Shown here in pieces: positions 1 to 11,304 of a stretch of DNA of 64,000 nucleotides (position 1 is the stretch's first letter; the number at the start of each line of letters is the position of its first letter). The DNA is from Eggerthellaceae bacterium (GTDB lineage: Bacteria; Actinomycetota; Coriobacteriia; Coriobacteriales; Eggerthellaceae): contig WRIS01000002.1 of the NCBI GenBank assembly GCA_009782615.1, positions 124,001 to 188,000 on the forward strand, written 5' to 3'. The notes beneath the pieces are model-generated. The model had not been told where the DNA came from. It saw only the letters and a list, made by a program, of their open reading frames with translations, and made no database searches. The translations under genes were made by a program, and so were the position numbers.

Positions 1-717
1 TCGAGACAAAAGTCCCGCGATAGCAATGGCAGCAGCAATCGCAAAGATGACAACACTTTGCCAGATGCGTCCCTCAACAAAACCACTTGCGGCATACGTG
101 GAGACAAGGATGCCAGGGATGCGCCCCGTATTCGACAACAAAAGAAAATCGCGCATACGCATATCGGTTAAGGGGACAAGGTAGGTGAAAGAATCCTTCG
201 GAAGCCCTGGAATCAAAAACAGAACAAAGACGATGATGCTCAGCTTGCTCGTCTTTTCAAATTCACGGAACTTCCCCAGGAAGTTTGGCGGCACCACGCT
301 TTGTACAAAAGGCGCGCCCAGCTTATGAACGAGCATAAAGATAAACGCACTTGAAATGATGCAACAAATAAGAATGATAAGGGCACCAAGCCACGGACCA
401 TACAAAATACCAGCGGCGAACTGGGTGATTTCTCCAGGCACAAAGACAACGATGTGGGTGACAAACTGCATAGCGAACAACACAAGCACCCCTGCCGCCC
501 CCGCTCCCCGAATGTCGGCAAGTATTTGGTTAAGCCCGCCAGGTTCAAAAATCCCTGAAAAATAGGGCTTGAGGAAAAAGATTATGATAGCCACCAAAAC
601 GAAGAAAAGCATCAAGCCCGCGAACTTGAAAATATCAGCGTTTTTTACGCGTTTGGAAAGAGTTTTGTCGTCTGCCTTTTGGAGGGCATCGTCGTTGTAG
701 TTTTGGGTATCGCTCAT
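1..717 (-). CDS. TVP38/TMEM64 (VTT/DedA-like) membrane protein, 3' end outside window
   Basis: An open minus-strand frame starts at an ATG at 715-717 and runs off the left edge, giving 239 residues with no stop. A charged N-terminal segment is followed by a TM helix at about residues 30-50. A VTT (SNARE-associated) region follows, with the proline/glycine-rich stretch FVPGEITQFAAGILYGPWLG and, later, FLIPGLPKDSFTYLVPLTD, both typical of TVP38/TMEM64 proteins. These are multi-pass inner-membrane proteins linked to lipid or small-solute handling; the substrate is not known. The downstream end cannot be judged. The family call is firm and the function open. Confidence 0.85.
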   Translation of the reverse strand, partial: MSDTQNYNDDALQKADDKTLSKRVKNADIFKFAGLMLFFVLVAIIIFFLKPYFSGIFEPGGLNQILADIRGAGAAGVLVLFAMQFVTHIVVFVPGEITQFAAGILYGPWLGALIILICCIISSAFIFMLVHKLGAPFVQSVVPPNFLGKFREFEKTSKLSIIVFVLFLIPGLPKDSFTYLVPLTDMRMRDFLLLSNTGRIPGILVSTYAASGFVEGRIWQSVVIFAIAAAIAIAGLLSR

Positions 718-757
718 TGCGGGTTCATCTCAGCCAATCGTTGTTATTTGTTTAGCA

Positions 758-1600
758 CTAGTCGTCGTGCCGTGCTTTTTGGTATTCATCCTTAAACGCC
801 GAAAACATACCCTTAGTTTTTCCGATTTGTTTTCCTGTCGCATAGGCGCCAACGTTGACAGCCTTTCCTGCTGTTTTTGCACCGACGCTTGCCGCTTTCG
901 AAACCTGTGTCGTGACCTTGCCTGCTTTGTCGGCAACGACCGCAGCACTCTTGCCTGCTTTGTCGGCAACCACGGCAGCACCCCTACCCGCTTTTTCGGC
1001 AAGCCCGCCTTCTGCTTCAAGTTCTGATACTTTGTCAGACACAAGCAGCGCACCCAAGACAGCTTCGGTTTCCCCGCGTTGCTCGGAGGCACCGTTTCCC
1101 GTGAAGGCGAGTGCGGTGCCCATACCCTTGCGAAAACCTTTTATAAGATTGGCAGGAATGTCGCGTTTGCCTAAAAGAACGTTTGAGGTCATGCCCGCAT
1201 CTGATTCGATGCTGTGCACCGTTCCTGTTATCCGATTGAAGGTGACATTGCCGACAAAGCCGAAACTTTGTCCGCCGTTAGTCATAATAGGGAGTCCTAC
1301 CCACAAAACACATTCGTCAGGATCGACATCAAGCGCGCGATAGGCAGCGTCGCCCGCAGCATCCCGTGTGCCGTTAATACACACGCGTCCATCAAGAAGC
1401 TCATAGCCCTCGATGGACACGAAGAGATTTTTGCGTCGAAACATCCAAAGGAAATCGGGGCGCTTCACGATGAAGCCAATGACTCGTCGCTCGGTTGGGT
1501 GAAACACAAAAGAGTTCACCTTGCCGATGCGCCGCGTTCCCCTTTTTCCGCCAATGACGCGATTATTCGCTAGTTCAGTTGTTGTAACGAGGTTTTTCAC
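758..1600 (-). CDS. PRC-barrel domain protein with Ala/Lys-rich helical tail
   Basis: 280 residues. The first 160 or so resemble two PRC-barrel units (beginning KNLVTTTELANNRVIGG, later GQSFGFVGNVTFNRITGTV), a small beta-barrel fold found in photosynthetic reaction-centre H subunits, RimM and many stress proteins. The last 80 residues are amphipathic and repetitive (AAVVADKAGK occurs twice, then KAASVGAKTAGKAV), like LEA or apolipoprotein-type helices. The GTG start at 1600 overlaps the stop of the upstream YtxH gene by 4 bases (GTGA), so the two are probably translationally coupled. No signal peptide is seen, so it is probably cytoplasmic or peripheral. A role in envelope or stress physiology is inferred only from the YtxH partner. 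Confidence 0.8.
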   Translation of the reverse strand: MKNLVTTTELANNRVIGGKRGTRRIGKVNSFVFHPTERRVIGFIVKRPDFLWMFRRKNLFVSIEGYELLDGRVCINGTRDAAGDAAYRALDVDPDECVLWVGLPIMTNGGQSFGFVGNVTFNRITGTVHSIESDAGMTSNVLLGKRDIPANLIKGFRKGMGTALAFTGNGASEQRGETEAVLGALLVSDKVSELEAEGGLAEKAGRGAAVVADKAGKSAAVVADKAGKVTTQVSKAASVGAKTAGKAVNVGAYATGKQIGKTKGMFSAFKDEYQKARHDD

Positions 1601-2073
1601 TCAGCTTTATCAGCGGCTTTGCTCGCTGCTTCAGCAACTTCAGAAGCGCCGTCGTTACCTTCAGCATTTTTGGCAACCTGAGAAGCGATGCGGGCGCGAG
1701 CCGCTTCAATCTTTTCGCGCAGTTCGTCATTTTTCTCAGTGAAAACTGGCTTTACGTTGCTTGCGGTTTCTTGAACTTTCGTTGAAGCAACTTCGTAGAG
1801 CTCTTGCCCCTTGGCAGCAACGGTTTGAGCGACTTCTTGCCCTTTGGTGGTAACGGTGTTGTAGACTTCTTGACCCTTTGTCGTTGCGTCACGATATATC
1901 TGCTGAACATTGGCAGAAGCCTGTACGCCGAAGTCTTGTGCCTGACCCCAGCTTTCGTTGAGTTTGTCTGAAACAATTGCGCGCGTTTCGTCGCCAGGAC
2001 GGGGAGCGTACAGAAGAGCAACCGCTGCTCCAACCAATCCGCCGACAATAAAAGCACCTAATCCTTTACCCAT
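1597..2073 (-). CDS. YtxH domain-containing protein
   Basis: 158 residues with the diagnostic YtxH N-terminus: a glycine-rich membrane helix (AFIVGGLVGAAVALLYAPRPGDETR). It is followed by a long helical region with near-repeats of the form TTKGQEVYNTVTTKGQEVAQ, 11-mer-like as in LEA or apolipoprotein helices. YtxH proteins are general-stress or envelope-associated, with no known catalysis. The start is supported by a strong ribosome site, GAGGAGG, 5 bases upstream. It is the first gene of a two-gene operon with the PRC-barrel gene, and both share the amphipathic repeat style. Confidence 0.88.
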   Translation of the reverse strand: MGKGLGAFIVGGLVGAAVALLYAPRPGDETRAIVSDKLNESWGQAQDFGVQASANVQQIYRDATTKGQEVYNTVTTKGQEVAQTVAAKGQELYEVASTKVQETASNVKPVFTEKNDELREKIEAARARIASQVAKNAEGNDGASEVAEAASKAADKAE

Positions 2074-2224
2074 GATGGCCTCCTCTATGGAAATACAAAA
2101 TTTGTTTTACGCACGTGCTTTCGTGCTGTTTCCTTATTATAGGGTATCCCCGCACAAGGGCAGAGAGAATCTTTGGTATCCACGAAAAGGTTGCCGAGAT
2201 GTAACAAGGACAAGGTCGGCGGCG

Positions 2225-3208
2225 CTAAGCGTAGGTGCTGACAAGCTGGTCGAACACTTCAGAAAGAGTCAGATTCGAAGCCGCGCAAGCTGCAGGGAAA
2301 AGTGAAAGTTCGGTCATGCCTGGCGAAACGTCGATTTCAAGCACCCGTGCGCAGCTGCCGTCCCAGATAAGATCAACCCGTCCTAAGTCGCTTACGCCAT
2401 AGGCTCGATAGACCTCCAAGGCAGCGCGTTCGATTTCGCCTCGAATCGCTAAAGCTTGTGTTGCACCGTCGGAAAGGGACGAATCTCGCACAGGGCAGAA
2501 AAACTCAACCGCATCCATGGACATGCGGGCTTCGGTTGTGTAAAGACCATGAGCAGGAACGATTTCAACGGGCGGAAGAACTTTGGCGTCGAAGCCTTTC
2601 CCAAGAACCGACACTGACATTTCCGTACCGCTAATCCATTGTTCGATAATGACTTCAGCGTCGTAGTTGAGAGCATCAAGGATGGCTTCGCCGAGGTCTT
2701 CTATCTTTTCAACTTTGTGCACGCCCATGGCAGAACCGCCGCAAGCAGGCTTTACGGCAAAAGGAAAACCGCCGTCAATCCTTTCTTCGATAAGATTCAG
2801 CGCAGTGGCAGCGCCCATGTCTTTGAAAGCATCGCGTGCAATGCAGATGCCTTGAGGCCAGGCCGCGATAGGAGCTTCTTTGGTGCAGGCACGGTAATCG
2901 GTCATGATGGTGGGCAGCAACGCCTTGTTCCACGTTTTGCGACAAACCGCCGCCGAAGAACCAACGAAGGGAACCCCCAACAGTTCAAGCAGGCTTTGAA
3001 TAGTGCCGTCCTCGCCATGCTTGCCGTGAAGGGCGCTGTAACACACATCAGGTCTTTCGCTTTGCAGCGTAGGAACCAGTTCTTTGGTGGTGTCGAGGGG
3101 TACAACTTTATGCCCCGCCTCTTCCAAGGCGCTGCACACCTGTTTCCCGCTTGCCAGACTAAATCCTCGTTCGAAGGAATTGCCACCCATTAACACTGCT
3201 ACTTTCAT
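2225..3208 (-). CDS. ddl: D-alanine--D-alanine ligase family protein (divergent)
   Basis: 327 residues of the ATP-grasp Ddl fold, which joins two D-Ala for peptidoglycan precursor synthesis in the cytoplasm. Visible motifs are the N-terminal VLMGGNSFERGFSLASG, ALHGKHGEDGTIQSLLELLG, the ATP-site KPACGGSAMG, GRVD, and the C-terminal LEIDVSPGMTELSLFP. The ATG at 3208 is chosen over the upstream in-frame GTG at 3226 because GAGGAG lies 10 bases before it and overlaps the GTG. Compared from memory with E. coli DdlB, several active-site positions differ: R147 is Cys, E148 is Gly, K215-Y216 is Arg-Met, and the Mg-ligand N272 is Asp. It lies 70 bases after the aminotransferase gene on the same strand. 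It is either the housekeeping enzyme of an unusual lineage or a paralogue with altered substrate. Confidence 0.85.
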   Translation of the reverse strand: MKVAVLMGGNSFERGFSLASGKQVCSALEEAGHKVVPLDTTKELVPTLQSERPDVCYSALHGKHGEDGTIQSLLELLGVPFVGSSAAVCRKTWNKALLPTIMTDYRACTKEAPIAAWPQGICIARDAFKDMGAATALNLIEERIDGGFPFAVKPACGGSAMGVHKVEKIEDLGEAILDALNYDAEVIIEQWISGTEMSVSVLGKGFDAKVLPPVEIVPAHGLYTTEARMSMDAVEFFCPVRDSSLSDGATQALAIRGEIERAALEVYRAYGVSDLGRVDLIWDGSCARVLEIDVSPGMTELSLFPAACAASNLTLSEVFDQLVSTYA

Positions 3209-3278
3209 CTGCTTTGTGCTCCTCACAGGTTTTCAACAGGTAATTGCATCGTTGGTTGCATTGTGTGCCTAGCCGTTT

Positions 3279-4556
3279 CTATTGCTTCTTGGTTGCCGCA
3301 GGGCTGCGAAGAGCGCCTGCGTCAAGGAAGGTTCGATACAATTCGAGGCGTTCATTGAGAACCGCGCCAAGGCGGCGAATTGCTTCATGGATTTTTTCGG
3401 GACTCGCAAAACAAAAGGCAAGACGCATACAGTTCTTTCCTGCGCTTCCGTTGGGGTAGAAAGAATCTCCTGGGGTATAGGTCACCCCGTTTTCGAGCGC
3501 CACCGAAAGAATGGAACCCGTGTCAACATAGTCGGGAAGGGTAACCCAAATAAACAGACCGCCTTCGGGATGCGTCCACGTGGCTTCAGGCGGGAAGAAT
3601 TCTTGCAAGGCTTCAAGCATTGCATCGCGGCGTTCTCGATACGTTTCAATAAAGCCCTGAAGCGTCTTTTGCCAGGGGGTGTCGCGGAAATAATGCTCAA
3701 CAACAATCATGTTAAAAGCGCTTCCGCACAAGTCGGTTCCTTGCTTTACCAGGTTGATGCGCGCAAGGATGCACTTCGGTGCTACAATCCAGCCCGTGCG
3801 CAAGCCAGGTGCGAGAATCTTAGAAATCGTGCCCAGATAGATGACCTTGTCGGAAAGGGCTTTAAGGGGCAGGATATGACCGCCCTCAAAACGAAGGCGC
3901 CCGTAGGGGTCGTCCTCTACGACGAGAAAGTCGTATTCTTCGGCAAGTTCAAGAAGGCGCTTGCGACGCTCGGCAATCATGGTGACGCCTGCGGGGTTCT
4001 GGAAATTCGGAATGGTGTAGAGAAACTTCACACTGCCCTTACCTAGACGGCGCAATTCTTCTTCAAGCAAATCCATGCGCAAGCCTTCGTTATCGAGTGG
4101 AACGCAGTGGATGTCGGGCTCGTAAGCAGAAAACGCCTGCAAGGCACCGAGATAGGTAGGCCCTTCGGCAAGGATGATGTCGCCAGGATTGATGAAGGAT
4201 TTTGCAACGAGGTCAAGCGCTTCTTGCGCTCCCGTGGTAAGAATGATGTCGTCAGGGCGACAGCGCACACCCAGGTCGCGCACGATGTCGCACGCCACTT
4301 CGCGCATGCCTAAAAGCCCGTCGGTTGATGTGTATTGGAGGGCAAGGGTGCGTTTGTCGTTGCAGGCTGCTTCGACGGCTTTTTGGATGGCTGCTTGCGG
4401 AAGGAGGGAGACATCGGGCATTCCGCCTGAAAGAGAGATAACGTCGGCACTTGTTGCGGCAGAAAACAGGTCGCGCACTGCAGAGGAGCGCATCTTTGTT
4501 ACGCGGTCGGCGACCTTGTCGCTGGTGAAATCAAAGGTTATGTGTGCTGATGGCAT
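3279..4556 (-). CDS. PLP-dependent aminotransferase, class I fold (LysN / 2-aminoadipate type)
   Basis: 425 residues. Fold-type I aminotransferase features are visible: LSGGMPDVSLLP near residue 43, LTTGAQEALDLVAKSF near 107, NFQNPAGVTM near 184, EDDPYGRLRF near 214, the PLP Schiff-base lysine K246 in GTISKILAPGLRTGW, and a C-terminal Arg in NCMRLAFCF. The family (PLP aminotransferase of the MocR-like/LysN group, without the GntR domain) transfers amino groups between aromatic, aminoadipate or branched amino acids and 2-oxoglutarate. Exact specificity cannot be read. Its ATG follows the stop of the preceding CphA-N-like gene by one base, so the two are certainly co-transcribed. Confidence 0.9.
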   Translation of the reverse strand: MPSAHITFDFTSDKVADRVTKMRSSAVRDLFSAATSADVISLSGGMPDVSLLPQAAIQKAVEAACNDKRTLALQYTSTDGLLGMREVACDIVRDLGVRCRPDDIILTTGAQEALDLVAKSFINPGDIILAEGPTYLGALQAFSAYEPDIHCVPLDNEGLRMDLLEEELRRLGKGSVKFLYTIPNFQNPAGVTMIAERRKRLLELAEEYDFLVVEDDPYGRLRFEGGHILPLKALSDKVIYLGTISKILAPGLRTGWIVAPKCILARINLVKQGTDLCGSAFNMIVVEHYFRDTPWQKTLQGFIETYRERRDAMLEALQEFFPPEATWTHPEGGLFIWVTLPDYVDTGSILSVALENGVTYTPGDSFYPNGSAGKNCMRLAFCFASPEKIHEAIRRLGAVLNERLELYRTFLDAGALRSPAATKKQ

Positions 4557-4557
4557 C

Positions 4558-5010
4558 TTATACTCTATCGTTTGCAGCTAATAGGTCTCCATACTCTAGC
4601 AAAGCATCGTTGAGAATGCGCGCTGCATCACGAAAAGCCCGTAAAGCGCTCAAATCATCGGTAAAACTCACCTCGACTCGGGCACGTCCGAGTGCTTTTT
4701 CTGTCCAGGTGCTGGTTCCGACAAAGGTTTCGTCTGGGGAAGTGCTCGCCTTCGCTTGCAGGTCGATGACGAGGTGTTCGAAAAGGTGAGGAAGCGCTGT
4801 TGAGTTTATGGCTGCCCCAAATGTTGTTCCGTGGGGATTTTTGCAGGTGTGATTCACAAGATTAGGAAAACGCGAAACGAAGATTTTTGCGAATTGCGGC
4901 GTTGTGAAAAGGGATAATTTCGGGTTGAGCGCAAGCTCACACACGATGCGGTCGGCTTTTACCACCAAGGTGTCAATGTGCAGAGCGGGAGGCTTGCTCG
5001 TTGCGCTAGT
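4558..5010 (-). CDS. Stand-alone homologue of the cyanophycin synthetase N-terminal HxxEH domain
   Basis: 150 residues if started at the ATG at 5010, which overlaps the upstream stop region (ATGACTAG) and suggests coupling; a longer start at 5052 is less economical. The middle reads FPNLVNHTC, then LPHLFEHLVIDLQ (H76, E79, H80), then an RVEVSF segment and an alanine-rich helix. This order matches the core of the CphA N domain as I recall it (a LPSLVEHFC-type segment, HIVEHVALELQ, then a VVFEY strand). In CphA that HxxEH site has been reported as a cryptic metallopeptidase-like centre. No ATP-grasp or Mur-ligase domain is attached. Function here is unknown; zinc binding and peptide hydrolysis are inferences. 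It sits in a serS-led gene cluster beside an aminotransferase. Confidence 0.6.
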   Translation of the reverse strand, partial: TSATSKPPALHIDTLVVKADRIVCELALNPKLSLFTTPQFAKIFVSRFPNLVNHTCKNPHGTTFGAAINSTALPHLFEHLVIDLQAKASTSPDETFVGTSTWTEKALGRARVEVSFTDDLSALRAFRDAARILNDALLEYGDLLAANDRV

Positions 5011-5869
5011 CATTGCCGCTTTCTGGATTGTCGCCTGCGGCAGTCGTGTCACTTGTGTCGCCCGTGTTGCCCGCGCTGCCTGCGCTATCTGCGTCGTCGG
5101 CAGCAGGGGGGAGGGACGAAGCGATGCGCGTAAGGGAAGTTGTCTTGTTGGGGTCTGCTCCTTCGCCGACAGGGATAAGCCCCAGTGCTACCTTGGCATC
5201 TTGGAACCAGTTTCCGATCCCGCCTTCGAGTATTATCAGCGTATTGCGGTCGGCAGAAAAACGGTAAATGCCTGATCCTTCTAAATCGTCAAAGGTATAG
5301 GTAATCGTTTTTTTCCAGGTGTTAAGGTGATAGGTGTAGTGAACATCAGGAGCAAGCTCCATCGCTTTGCTGTCGATGGTAACGACCGTTGCGGCTTCAC
5401 TTCCAAAGCTGGTCATCATCCATGTTCCGTGGAAATCTTCATGGTCGCTAAAGCGAAACCAACGATCCCAGCCGAAAAGACAGGCGGTTATAACAATCGC
5501 AAGAAGAAGCACCAAGAAGATGAATTGCGGTATGCGCAAGTGGCTTCGGGGTGACCTTGTCGGTTGTGCCGATTTGTAACTTGCTGCAGAACTTGCTGCA
5601 GAACTTGAGGCAGAACCTGAAGTGGAACGGGCATGCTCGCGCGCACGAAGTTCGTGGTCTTTGTGCACGGGTGCAGCTTCCCTTTGTGAAGATGCAGTCC
5701 CTCTTTGTGCGGGTGCCACGTCGCCTCGCCGTGGTGCGGCTCCGCTTCGCGTGGGCGTTGCTCCTCTTTGCGACGGGTGCGCGTCAAAGTTTTGCCGCGT
5801 GGAAGGGGGATGTTCAACAGCAGGATTTTTGACGGAGCGTCGGGCGGGTGTTCTTCGTTGGTCTGACAT
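5006..5869 (-). CDS. Membrane-anchored protein with disordered flanks, function unknown
   Basis: 287 residues. Residues 1-108 are Arg/Ser/Ala-rich and predicted disordered, with irregular repeats of the form SQRGATPTRSGAAPRRG. One TM helix (FIFLVLLLAIVITACLFGW) lies at about 113-131. An extracytoplasmic globular region follows, with DFHGTWMMTSFGSEAATVVTIDS and a later TFDDLEGSGIYRFSADRNTLII, which looks like a small beta-sandwich of the lipocalin or DUF4923 style. The last 40 residues are Ala/Asp/Ser-rich. It begins 3 bases after the serS stop and overlaps the following gene. I do not recognise the family. Confidence 0.75.
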   Translation of the reverse strand: MSDQRRTPARRSVKNPAVEHPPSTRQNFDAHPSQRGATPTRSGAAPRRGDVAPAQRGTASSQREAAPVHKDHELRAREHARSTSGSASSSAASSAASYKSAQPTRSPRSHLRIPQFIFLVLLLAIVITACLFGWDRWFRFSDHEDFHGTWMMTSFGSEAATVVTIDSKAMELAPDVHYTYHLNTWKKTITYTFDDLEGSGIYRFSADRNTLIILEGGIGNWFQDAKVALGLIPVGEGADPNKTTSLTRIASSLPPAADDADSAGSAGNTGDTSDTTAAGDNPESGND

Positions 5870-5872
5870 AGG

Positions 5873-7153
5873 CTAACTCGGTTCGATGACCGCTACCCCT
5901 CCCATATAAGGAACCAACACGTCGGGAATTTTTACCGAGCCGTCGGCTTGTTGATAGTTCTCAAGAATGGCTGCCATGGTACGCCCCACCGCAAGACCCG
6001 ACCCGTTTAAGGTGTGCACAAGACGGCTTCCCTTGAAGTTTTCGGGGTCGCGGTATTTGATGTTGGCGCGGCGCGCTTGGAAATCGGTGCAGTTTGAGCA
6101 CGACGATATTTCTTTGTAGCCGTTATAAGAGGGCAGCCACACTTCCAAATCATAGGTCTTTGCGGCAGAAAAACCGATGTCGCCTGTGCACAGTGCAATC
6201 ACCCGATACGGCAAACCGAGTAGCTGCAAGATGTTTTCAGCGTCGGCAACCATGGATTCCAAATCGTCGAAACTTTCTTCGGGTTTGGCGTATTTAACCA
6301 TTTCCACCTTGTCGAACTGGTGCACGCGAATGAGCCCGCGGGTGTCGCGCCCCGCGCTTCCCGCTTCTTCACGGAAACACGAAGTAAAGCCACAATAACT
6401 CAAAGGGAGCACGGCGGCTTCGAGCACTTCTTGTGCGTGGATGTTTGTCAGCTGTACTTCGGCGGTGGGGATAAGATAGAGCCCTTCGGTTGTCTTGAAG
6501 AGATCCTCTTCAAACTTTGGCAACTGACCTGTTCCCGTGAGGGTTTCGGTGTTTGCCATGGAAGGACACCACCACTCTTTGTAGCCGCGACTGGTGTGGG
6601 TATCAACCATGAAGTTGATGAGTGCGCGCTCCAAGCGTGCGCCCAGCCCGCCTAAAAGGATGAAGCGACTTTTTGCAAGTTTTACCGCGCGCTCGAAATC
6701 AATGATTCCCAATTCAGGACCGATGTCCCAGTGAGCTTTTGCCTCGAAGTCAAACACAGGGGGTGTTCCCCAACGCCGCACTTCAGGATTATCTTCTTCG
6801 CTTGCGCCCAGGGGGGTTGTCTCGGCGGGAAGGTTGGGTGTGTTCAACAAAAGTTCGTTTAAGGCTGCGTCAATTTCTTCACGCTTTTTCGCGGCACGTT
6901 CAAGTTCTTCGTTAATCGCGCGAACCTCTTCTTTGGCAGTTTCCGCTTCGGCGGTTTTTCCTGCACCAAACATCTGACCGATTGCTTTTGATGCGGCGTT
7001 GCGCTGTGCTTGCAAGGCTTCTTCGGCAGCGATGGCGGCTCTGCGTGTTTCGTCCAGTTCTGAAAAACGAGAACTGTCCCATGAAGCAGCGCGGTTCTTA
7101 AGGGCTTCTGCCACCAGTTCCTGGTTTTCTCGAACGAAACGAATGTCTAACAT
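5873..7153 (-). CDS. serS: Seryl-tRNA synthetase
   Basis: 426 residues, the normal length for bacterial SerRS, which charges tRNA-Ser (and tRNA-Sec) with serine. The N-terminal helical arm ([14 protein letters not shown] through about residue 110) has the coiled-coil rich in Glu/Lys/Arg. Class II motif 2 is [20 protein letters not shown], and motif 3 is [18 protein letters not shown] near the C-terminus. The start is the ATG at 7153, preceded by AAAGGAG at 5-6 bases. In-frame upstream codons would add an unrelated basic 84-residue extension and are rejected. It heads a minus-strand series with the membrane protein, CphA-N-like protein and aminotransferase, spaced by only 1-4 bases. Confidence 0.97.
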
Positions 7154-7202
7154 GAAAAGGCTCCTTTGGTTCTTTTGGCTTTGCGTGACAGGTGACCTGC
7201 CG

Positions 7203-7247
7203 CTACGAGTAATAGGGATAGTATACCCTACCTGAGTTCGCTCGTAG
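7203..7247. promoter_or_regulatory. Inverted repeat upstream of serS with two TATACT boxes
   Basis: CTACGAG at 7203-7209 and CTCGTAG at 7241-7247 form perfect 7-base arms enclosing a shorter GGG/CCC palindrome around GTATAC. On the serS strand there are two TATACT hexamers in this interval, either of which could be a -10 box; no good -35 is evident. The element lies 50-94 bases upstream of the serS start. It could be an operator or a leader stem-loop. T-box features were looked for and not found. Confidence 0.35.
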
Positions 7248-7370
7248 TATACTTTACGTTGTTTTGCGCAAGCGCGCTTTTTATCGTGCTTTTTGTAGTG
7301 TATAGTTGCTAGTGTTGAGTGCGGATTTCGCCGAACTTTTATTAAGGATAGTACCGCGAGAAAGGTCGTC

Positions 7371-7661
7371 ATGGATTTCATGGCTGTATATGAGTTTCTT
7401 TTCAAGACCTATGCTGGCATTGGTTGCCTGGTGGCATTTGGCTTGGTTGCCAGTTTGATTGCGGCGGTCATTATGGAAAGACGCATTCGCAAGCAATACA
7501 AAAACCATCAGCCGACCGAGGACGATTGGTCGTTTTTTGATGATGGCGATGAAAGTGATGCCGACGACGCTGCCGACAGTGGCAAGAGCGCCGACAGCGC
7601 GGGTAGTGGTGGCAAGAGTGCCGAGAGCGCTAGTGGCAGCAAGAAAGATAAGGAAAAATAA
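7371..7661 (+). CDS. Small single-pass membrane protein with acidic tail, unknown function
   Basis: 96 residues. A TM helix lies at about 18-35 ([18 protein letters not shown]), followed by basic residues (ERRIRKQYK) that predict a cytoplasmic C-terminus. The tail contains [19 protein letters not shown] and a Ser/Gly/Lys-rich end. The ATG is preceded by AAAGG at 5 bases. It is divergent from serS and ends 5 bases before the pyridoxamine kinase gene, suggesting one transcript. I do not recognise a named family. Confidence 0.7.
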
Positions 7662-10557: not shown

Positions 10558-10644
10558 GCGGGTGTGGCGGAATTGGCAGACGCGCATGGTTCAGGTCCAT
10601 GTGAGCGCAAGCTCATGGGGGTTCAAGTCCCTTCACCCGCACCA
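10558..10644 (+). tRNA. tRNA-Leu (anticodon CAG)
   Basis: A full cloverleaf is visible. The acceptor arms are GCGGGTG (10558-10564) and CACCCGC (10634-10640), with discriminator A and an encoded CCA ending at 10644. The anticodon stem CATGG/CCATG encloses loop TTCAGGT, giving anticodon CAG for CUG codons. The long variable arm (GAGC/GCTC type) is the class II hallmark of tRNA-Leu, and the T arm contains GGTTCAAGTCC-like sequence. It stands alone, with its own promoter and terminator. Confidence 0.97.
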
Positions 10645-11004: not shown

Positions 11005-11016
11005 AAGGTGACAACT

Positions 11017-11304
11017 ATGGCAAAAAGAGAATTACTTGATTGGGATATTGTGGATTATCTCGATAGTGACGAACGGATGGCAGGATATCTTGAAGCCGTT
11101 CTCGAAGACGATGACCCGCAGCTGTTCAGGGCTGCGCTTGGCGATATTGCACGTGCGAGAGGGGTGTCTGCTTTGTCGCGCGACACAGGAATAACTCGCC
11201 CTGGGCTGTATAAGGCGCTTTCCTCTGAAGGAAATCCATCATTTGATACTGTCTGCAAGGTTATCGATTCTTTTGGATTAAAGCTTGTAATCAGCACGAA
11301 ATAG
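11017..11304 (+). CDS. Addiction-module antidote protein, HigA-like (COG3636 type)
   Basis: 95 residues. The N-terminus (LLDWDIVDYLDSDERMAGYLEAVLEDD) and the HTH (GVSALSRDTGITRPGLYKAL, then GNPSFDTVCKVIDSFGLKL) are characteristic of the probable-addiction-module antidote family. The HTH binds its own promoter and the protein neutralises a RelE-fold RNase. The ATG at 11017 has AAGGTG 7 bases upstream; the GTG at 11008 falls within that ribosome site. Its toxin partner survives only as the 18-codon remnant just upstream. Its role may now be solely regulatory, or it may protect against an incoming homologous toxin. Confidence 0.85.
   Translation: MAKRELLDWDIVDYLDSDERMAGYLEAVLEDDDPQLFRAALGDIARARGVSALSRDTGITRPGLYKALSSEGNPSFDTVCKVIDSFGLKLVISTK

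Follow-up and report, generated by a model that had tools for sequence, protein, structure and literature searches.

A stand-alone relative of the cyanophycin synthetase N-terminal domain conserved across Coriobacteriia, with a predicted metal site

The window, a stretch of 64,000 nucleotides from a contig of an Eggerthellaceae bacterium (class Coriobacteriia), carries on its minus strand a coding sequence at 4558–5013 for a stand-alone protein of 151 amino acids of the type of the N-terminal domain of cyanophycin synthetase (CphA). The original prediction had placed this gene at 4558–5010 with 150 residues; the reading frame stood but the start did not, the ATG at 5013–5011 having been omitted, and the coding sequence is one codon longer. 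With the Met counted, the numbering given for H76, E79 and H80 was exact (codons 4788–4786, 4779–4777 and 4776–4774, respectively). The elements were found in the order claimed, with an FPNLVNHTC segment followed by HxxEH and then by a RVEVSF strand and an Ala-rich helix, and ATP-grasp and Mur-ligase parts were absent from the protein, as had been stated. A full cyanophycin synthetase combines the N, ATP-grasp and Mur-ligase parts in one protein, a combination that the 151-residue protein does not have. The genome itself (1.67 Mb, 93% complete) holds the gene, hereafter the N gene, in a single copy, and no other PF18921 match was found in it.

The N gene was located between a membrane-protein frame and an aminotransferase frame with serS upstream, the arrangement originally described. 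Its start overlaps the end (stop 5008–5006) of the upstream gene for a predicted membrane protein (5006–5869, minus strand), which had no Pfam or NCBIfam match over cut-off. This is preceded by serS (5873–7153, minus strand; Seryl_tRNA_N PF02403 and tRNA-synt_2b PF00587), the start of which was set by reading at the Met of MLDIRF. On the other side, a single base separates the N stop from the start (4556) of a class I/II PLP aminotransferase, MocR-like but without the DNA-binding part (3279–4556, minus strand; PF00155, E 9.7e-28), whose best NCBIfam matches lay below their cut-offs. Next come Ddl2 (2225–3226, minus strand; PF07478/PF01820), a second D-Ala-D-Ala-ligase homologue that appears altered at the K215/Y216 positions by residue comparison, and two conserved downstream partners, a YtxH-like protein (1597–2073, minus strand; PF12732) and a PRC-barrel protein (758–1600, minus strand; PF05239). 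The order in Eggerthellaceae is serS, membrane protein, N, [aminotransferase, Ddl2], YtxH, PRC barrel and a TVP38-like gene, the last assigned by reading. No promoter was seen between the genes in window 700–7447, a weak argument for one operon. Elsewhere in the window, a tRNA-Leu(CAG) was found at 10558–10644, between a Ser/Thr kinase gene and a gene for an addiction-module antidote protein (11008–11304; PF21716, E 7.4e-29), for which no toxin partner was evident among the ORFs of at least 40 aa just upstream.

The family assignment was obtained with PF18921 ("Cyanophycin synthase-like N-terminal domain"), which matched the window protein at E 2.8e-8, its 34.2 bits exceeding the gathering score of 27, over residues 36–135 of the 150-residue translation and positions 16–112 of the 115 in the model. 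The CphA models TIGR02068 and NF010623 (NCBIfam) matched this same stretch only, with 25.1–26.5 bits against cut-offs of 850–877. A single-sequence search of PDB sequences with the window protein reached CphA1 at E 0.46 only, and the relation was settled by profile searches, in which CphA1 was found at E 2.9e-7 with profile A2 and at E 1.3e-15 with the class profile A3. The AlphaFold (AF2) model, built from 75 sequences, had a mean pLDDT of 95 and a pTM of 0.89. CphA1 chains ranked first when this model was searched with Foldseek (E 1.1e-4, probability 1.00), and CphA1 (7wae) was also the best match in VIA-align 2 (Z 14.8, rmsd 2.4, 127 aligned residues), followed by CphA2 (Z 11.4), 3ueb (8.4) and entries at 6.3 or less. 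The kinship to the CphA N domain, which the original prediction had made dependent on profile or structure comparison, was thereby put to both, and both point to the N domain of CphA1. These sequence and model comparisons support placing the window protein in PF18921, the CphA N-domain family, as a member that stands free. The nearest non-CphA fold in VIA-align 2, TON_0450 of Thermococcus (PDB 3ueb; 90 aligned residues), is an archaeal protein of 104 residues that was unmatched by profiles A2 and A3 and absent from the literature searched; judging from the model, it is possibly a distant free-standing relative of the CphA-N-type protein.

LuxS likewise has HxxEH plus Cys as its metal set (H54, E57, H58 and C126) and acts on S-ribosylhomocysteine. 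Its chains were the first non-CphA entries in Foldseek (ranks 6, 8 and 9; E 0.02–0.04), which would fit a LuxS-like non-peptidase acting on a small metabolite. This reading is improbable, given the very low TM-scores of 0.23–0.25 and rmsd values of 9.5–9.6 in Foldseek. The Cys precedes the helix in the window protein and follows it in LuxS. No LuxS row was among the 50 VIA-align 2 matches listed.

In PMC9262961, published in 2022, the N-domain site of CphA1 is presented as cryptic and as responsible for making primers. In the Synechocystis enzyme, the metal ligands are given there as C59, H79 and H83 and the general base as E82, with H57 and E87 supporting H83 and R70 among the contacts. The equivalents in the window protein are H55, C57, F65, H76, E79, H80 and D84. 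The spacing C57-x18-H76xxE79H80, with H55, is one residue shorter than the Cx19HxxEH with HxC of CphA1. H55-x-C57 (4843–4851, minus strand; H57/C59 of CphA1) comprises a supporting His and a predicted third metal ligand and is invariant in alignments A1, A2 and A3, and H76-xx-E79-H80 (4774–4788, minus strand; H79/E82/H83 of CphA1) comprises the predicted metal-binding His pair and general base. By analogy with CphA1, the metal triad would thus include C57, which the original prediction had not named as a ligand. The position of R70, which PMC9262961 reports as needed for primer independence on cyanophycin, is occupied by A68 in the window protein and by V, E, A, I or C in stand-alone relatives, and is R in 22/22 CphA rows. 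E90 of CphA1 is likewise not kept in the stand-alone proteins; with both residues replaced, substrate binding is not transferable from CphA1.

The Cys, His, Glu and His of C..HxxEH were present in 87/87 distinct stand-alone rows and the His of HxC in 86 of them, the loci having been taken from BLAST or profile searches in order of match quality. As a selection of this kind may overstate conservation, 20 weak or split matches were picked on purpose, and these retained C and HxxEH in 20/20 and HxC in 19/20. The original prediction, which had staked itself on H76, E79 and H80 being conserved among homologues, thus holds on both sets. In alignment A3, with 20–54% identity to the window protein, H55, C57, T72, H76, E79 and H80 were invariant, and the site residues stay constant while the remaining sequence drifts to 20–30% identity. 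Loci L134–L213 were fetched with the HxxEH pattern, so that conservation of HxxEH among them is biased and no proof alone; their rows and the window protein make up A2 (75 of the 81 available rows aligned, with L171, L174, L191, L196, L198 and L201, most of them split or truncated, omitted) and contribute 12 of the 39 rows of A3. The invariant site is read, from these alignments, as a sign that selection maintains a functional active site for a different substrate. Its retention speaks for use, as the primer-dependent TmCphA1 is without all four site residues according to PMC9262961.

The window protein was matched in 130 of the 138 genomes of its family, Eggerthellaceae, and PF18921 in 256/296 genomes of the class, Coriobacteriia. 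The class profile A3 matched 284/296 Coriobacteriia genomes, 262/268 of those of good quality and 120/125 genera, with one match per genome except for three Eggerthellaceae (G088, G135 and G136) with two pieces each. These homologues, together with a PF18921 score above the gathering score, make the ORF more than a chance one, and the stand-alone N gene belongs to the core gene set of Coriobacteriia. Carriers include the gut genera Eggerthella, Gordonibacter, Slackia and Adlercreutzia. Members from families f2 and f3 (L098–L101 and L116–L119) have a C-terminal extension of about 75–200 residues by frame. In a phylum sample of 396 genomes, PF18921 matched 24 genomes outside the class, 22 with scores in the range of CphA (20 of these in frames of at least 924 aa) and two as stand-alone forms. 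Armatimonadota, in which seven genomes were searched, also carry stand-alone forms; one of these genomes has a full CphA in addition and another has two stand-alone copies. In one Armatimonadota genome, the second stand-alone PF18921 protein (L220, G719:C9:9487-9873) is very divergent and has a longer Cys-to-HxxEH stretch.

Cyanophycin genes were also sought in the class. None of the PF18921 matches in the 256 class genomes scored within the range of CphA (best E 1.9e-17 against 6.7e-33 or lower for CphA rows), and the cyanophycinase model TIGR02069 was above cut-off in 0/99 class genomes; its weak matches in 40 of the 99 are taken for S51-type relatives. The Coriobacteriia genomes sampled show no sign of making cyanophycin. 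PF18921 membership and an intact site would also suit an endo-cyanophycinase for cyanophycin scavenged from the diet or from neighbours, but this is very improbable: cyanophycinase is above cut-off in none of the 99 class genomes, the protein's own genome is without CphA, R70 is replaced, no signal peptide was apparent by reading the sequence and the gene is near-universal in the class.

In an unrooted tree, which took 59 of 116 rows, some of them on long branches, 21 CphA rows, including one from Armatimonadota, were split from all stand-alone rows with a support of 98/98. With the CphA rows on one side of this branch, the stand-alone forms are, as far as the sequences tell, no recent fragments of CphA, and the free-standing form bears on the origin of the CphA N domain. 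A phage origin of the N gene was considered and rejected, as there was no tblastn match in phages and no confirmed viral contig; one phage protein shares the fold.

Neighbours were counted in 73 named Coriobacteriia loci, using only those with room (61 upstream and 64 downstream). Upstream of N, the membrane protein was found in 57/61 and serS in 59/61. Downstream, the aminotransferase and Ddl2 were each present in 39/64, both in 36/64 and neither in 22/64. The commonest downstream neighbours were YtxH (49/64) and PRC (48/64). Several loci in other orders of the class likewise have the aminotransferase and Ddl2 beside N; in these orders, RlpA-type, holin-like membrane and UPF0182 proteins were found upstream. 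In families f2 and f3, the locus lacks the pair, and YtxH and mostly PRC come next after N. The aminotransferase/Ddl2 pair is dispensable beside N. No neighbours were common to the seven Armatimonadota loci and Coriobacteriia, and an attempt to derive function from the Armatimonadota neighbours was abandoned, as ten flanking ORFs annotated by Pfam had nothing telling in common. With the pair missing in 22/64 loci and Armatimonadota without common neighbours, no pathway can be read from the conserved neighbourhood.

The frequency of YtxH and PRC genes downstream would agree with a module that holds metal or binds peptides without catalysis, for example in partnership with the YtxH and PRC-barrel proteins. 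There is only a small chance of this, since the general-base Glu, which a binding module does not need, is conserved as strictly as the metal ligands.

Ddl2 scored 122 bits against 191 for the canonical Ddl encoded elsewhere in the same genome, and at least two Ddl matches at E 1e-20 were found in 16/19 genomes tested. At the K-Y place (K215/Y216, positions named after E. coli DdlB), 19/20 comparison Ddl rows had K-Y and one (L244) E-K, and 20 of the 21 operon-cluster rows had R-[MLVI] or M-Y. The remaining row, L102, had K-Y; its Ddl lies elsewhere at its locus and is canonical-looking. VanX is a zinc peptidase beside the VanA ligase, with a fold unrelated to CphA N. A comparable ligase/peptidase module could be envisaged here, in which an unusual amino acid from the aminotransferase is built by Ddl2 into a non-canonical dipeptide or the end of a cell-wall stem, and N removes unwanted or mis-made peptide. 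The joint presence of both genes beside N, also in other orders, the single base between N and the aminotransferase, the second strong Ddl match in most genomes tested and the loss in Ddl2 of the K-Y pair speak for it. We nevertheless consider it rather unlikely, as N persists where neither gene is at the locus, the pair is off-locus in families f2 and f3 and the arrangement is absent in Armatimonadota. A wider scheme would make N a class-defining core metalloenzyme that works with a specificity-altered Ddl2 and the aminotransferase as such a module for a peptide or wall precursor, and the CphA N domain one branch of an older family of free peptidases, captured by cyanophycin synthetase for priming; this is distinctly unlikely.

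The preferred reading is that the window protein is a cytosolic, metal-dependent CphA N-type hydrolase, with a fold of about 130 residues and a substrate other than cyanophycin, and we regard this as likely. It builds on the homology, the predicted fold, the invariance of the site, the class-wide distribution and the lack of genes for cyanophycin in the genomes sampled; metal binding and mechanism are transferred from CphA1 as described in PMC9262961. C57, H76 and H80 would hold one metal ion, probably Zn, with H55 and D84 keeping H80 in place, and E79 would act as the general base, activating a water molecule for attack on a peptide or amide bond. The substrate, the least certain step of the proposal, would be a different compound of peptide-like nature that Coriobacteriia cells make or recycle internally. 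That it is not cyanophycin is inferred from the replaced contact residues and the missing partner genes, and in genomes carrying both neighbours it may be linked to the aminotransferase/Ddl2 product. Against the hydrolase reading, the N domain of CphA1 is itself a slow hydrolase, and the invariant site could serve binding instead. The window protein is probably an unrecognised enzyme, which points to an unrecognised step kept by nearly every Coriobacteriia species. The free-standing form with the same invariant residues suggests that the metal-site domain of CphA1 has an independent enzymatic life, and the window protein offers a small soluble model for the CphA1 N-domain site.

The PF18921 family and its site are already known, and stand-alone members are auto-named in databases. 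No study of stand-alone PF18921 proteins was found in the open-licence literature searched, and the passages of PMC10206079 searched do not mention them; to that extent, the class-wide conserved free-standing form without cyanophycin metabolism is undescribed. Among known systems, VanA/VanX, an altered-specificity Ddl-type ligase beside a zinc peptidase, serves as a working analogy only, and no van-type genes are claimed here. The M16 inverzincins (pitrilysin and insulin-degrading enzyme), of which the CphA1 N domain is proposed as a distant relative in PMC9262961, have HxxEH in common with the window protein. In contrast to their HxxEH with a downstream Glu/Asp/His ligand, the window protein is far smaller and its predicted third ligand is an upstream Cys; no M16 row was present among the Foldseek and 50 VIA-align 2 matches listed. 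UniProt A0A6J5PU94 (245 aa), from an uncultured Caudovirales phage, is also a stand-alone PF18921 protein (TM 0.72 to the window model), but it is a phage gene product and was not reached by sequence searches from the window protein. The closest known system is the N domain of CphA1. The stand-alone form differs from it in being a separate small protein without G or M domains, in not keeping R70 and E90 and in having W103 (74/75 A2 rows), two residues past the Gly pair of the GxT Thr. The two share the fold, the order of elements, the C-x18/19-HxxEH motif, the His of HxC, the Phe, the Thr and the Gly of the GxT turn.
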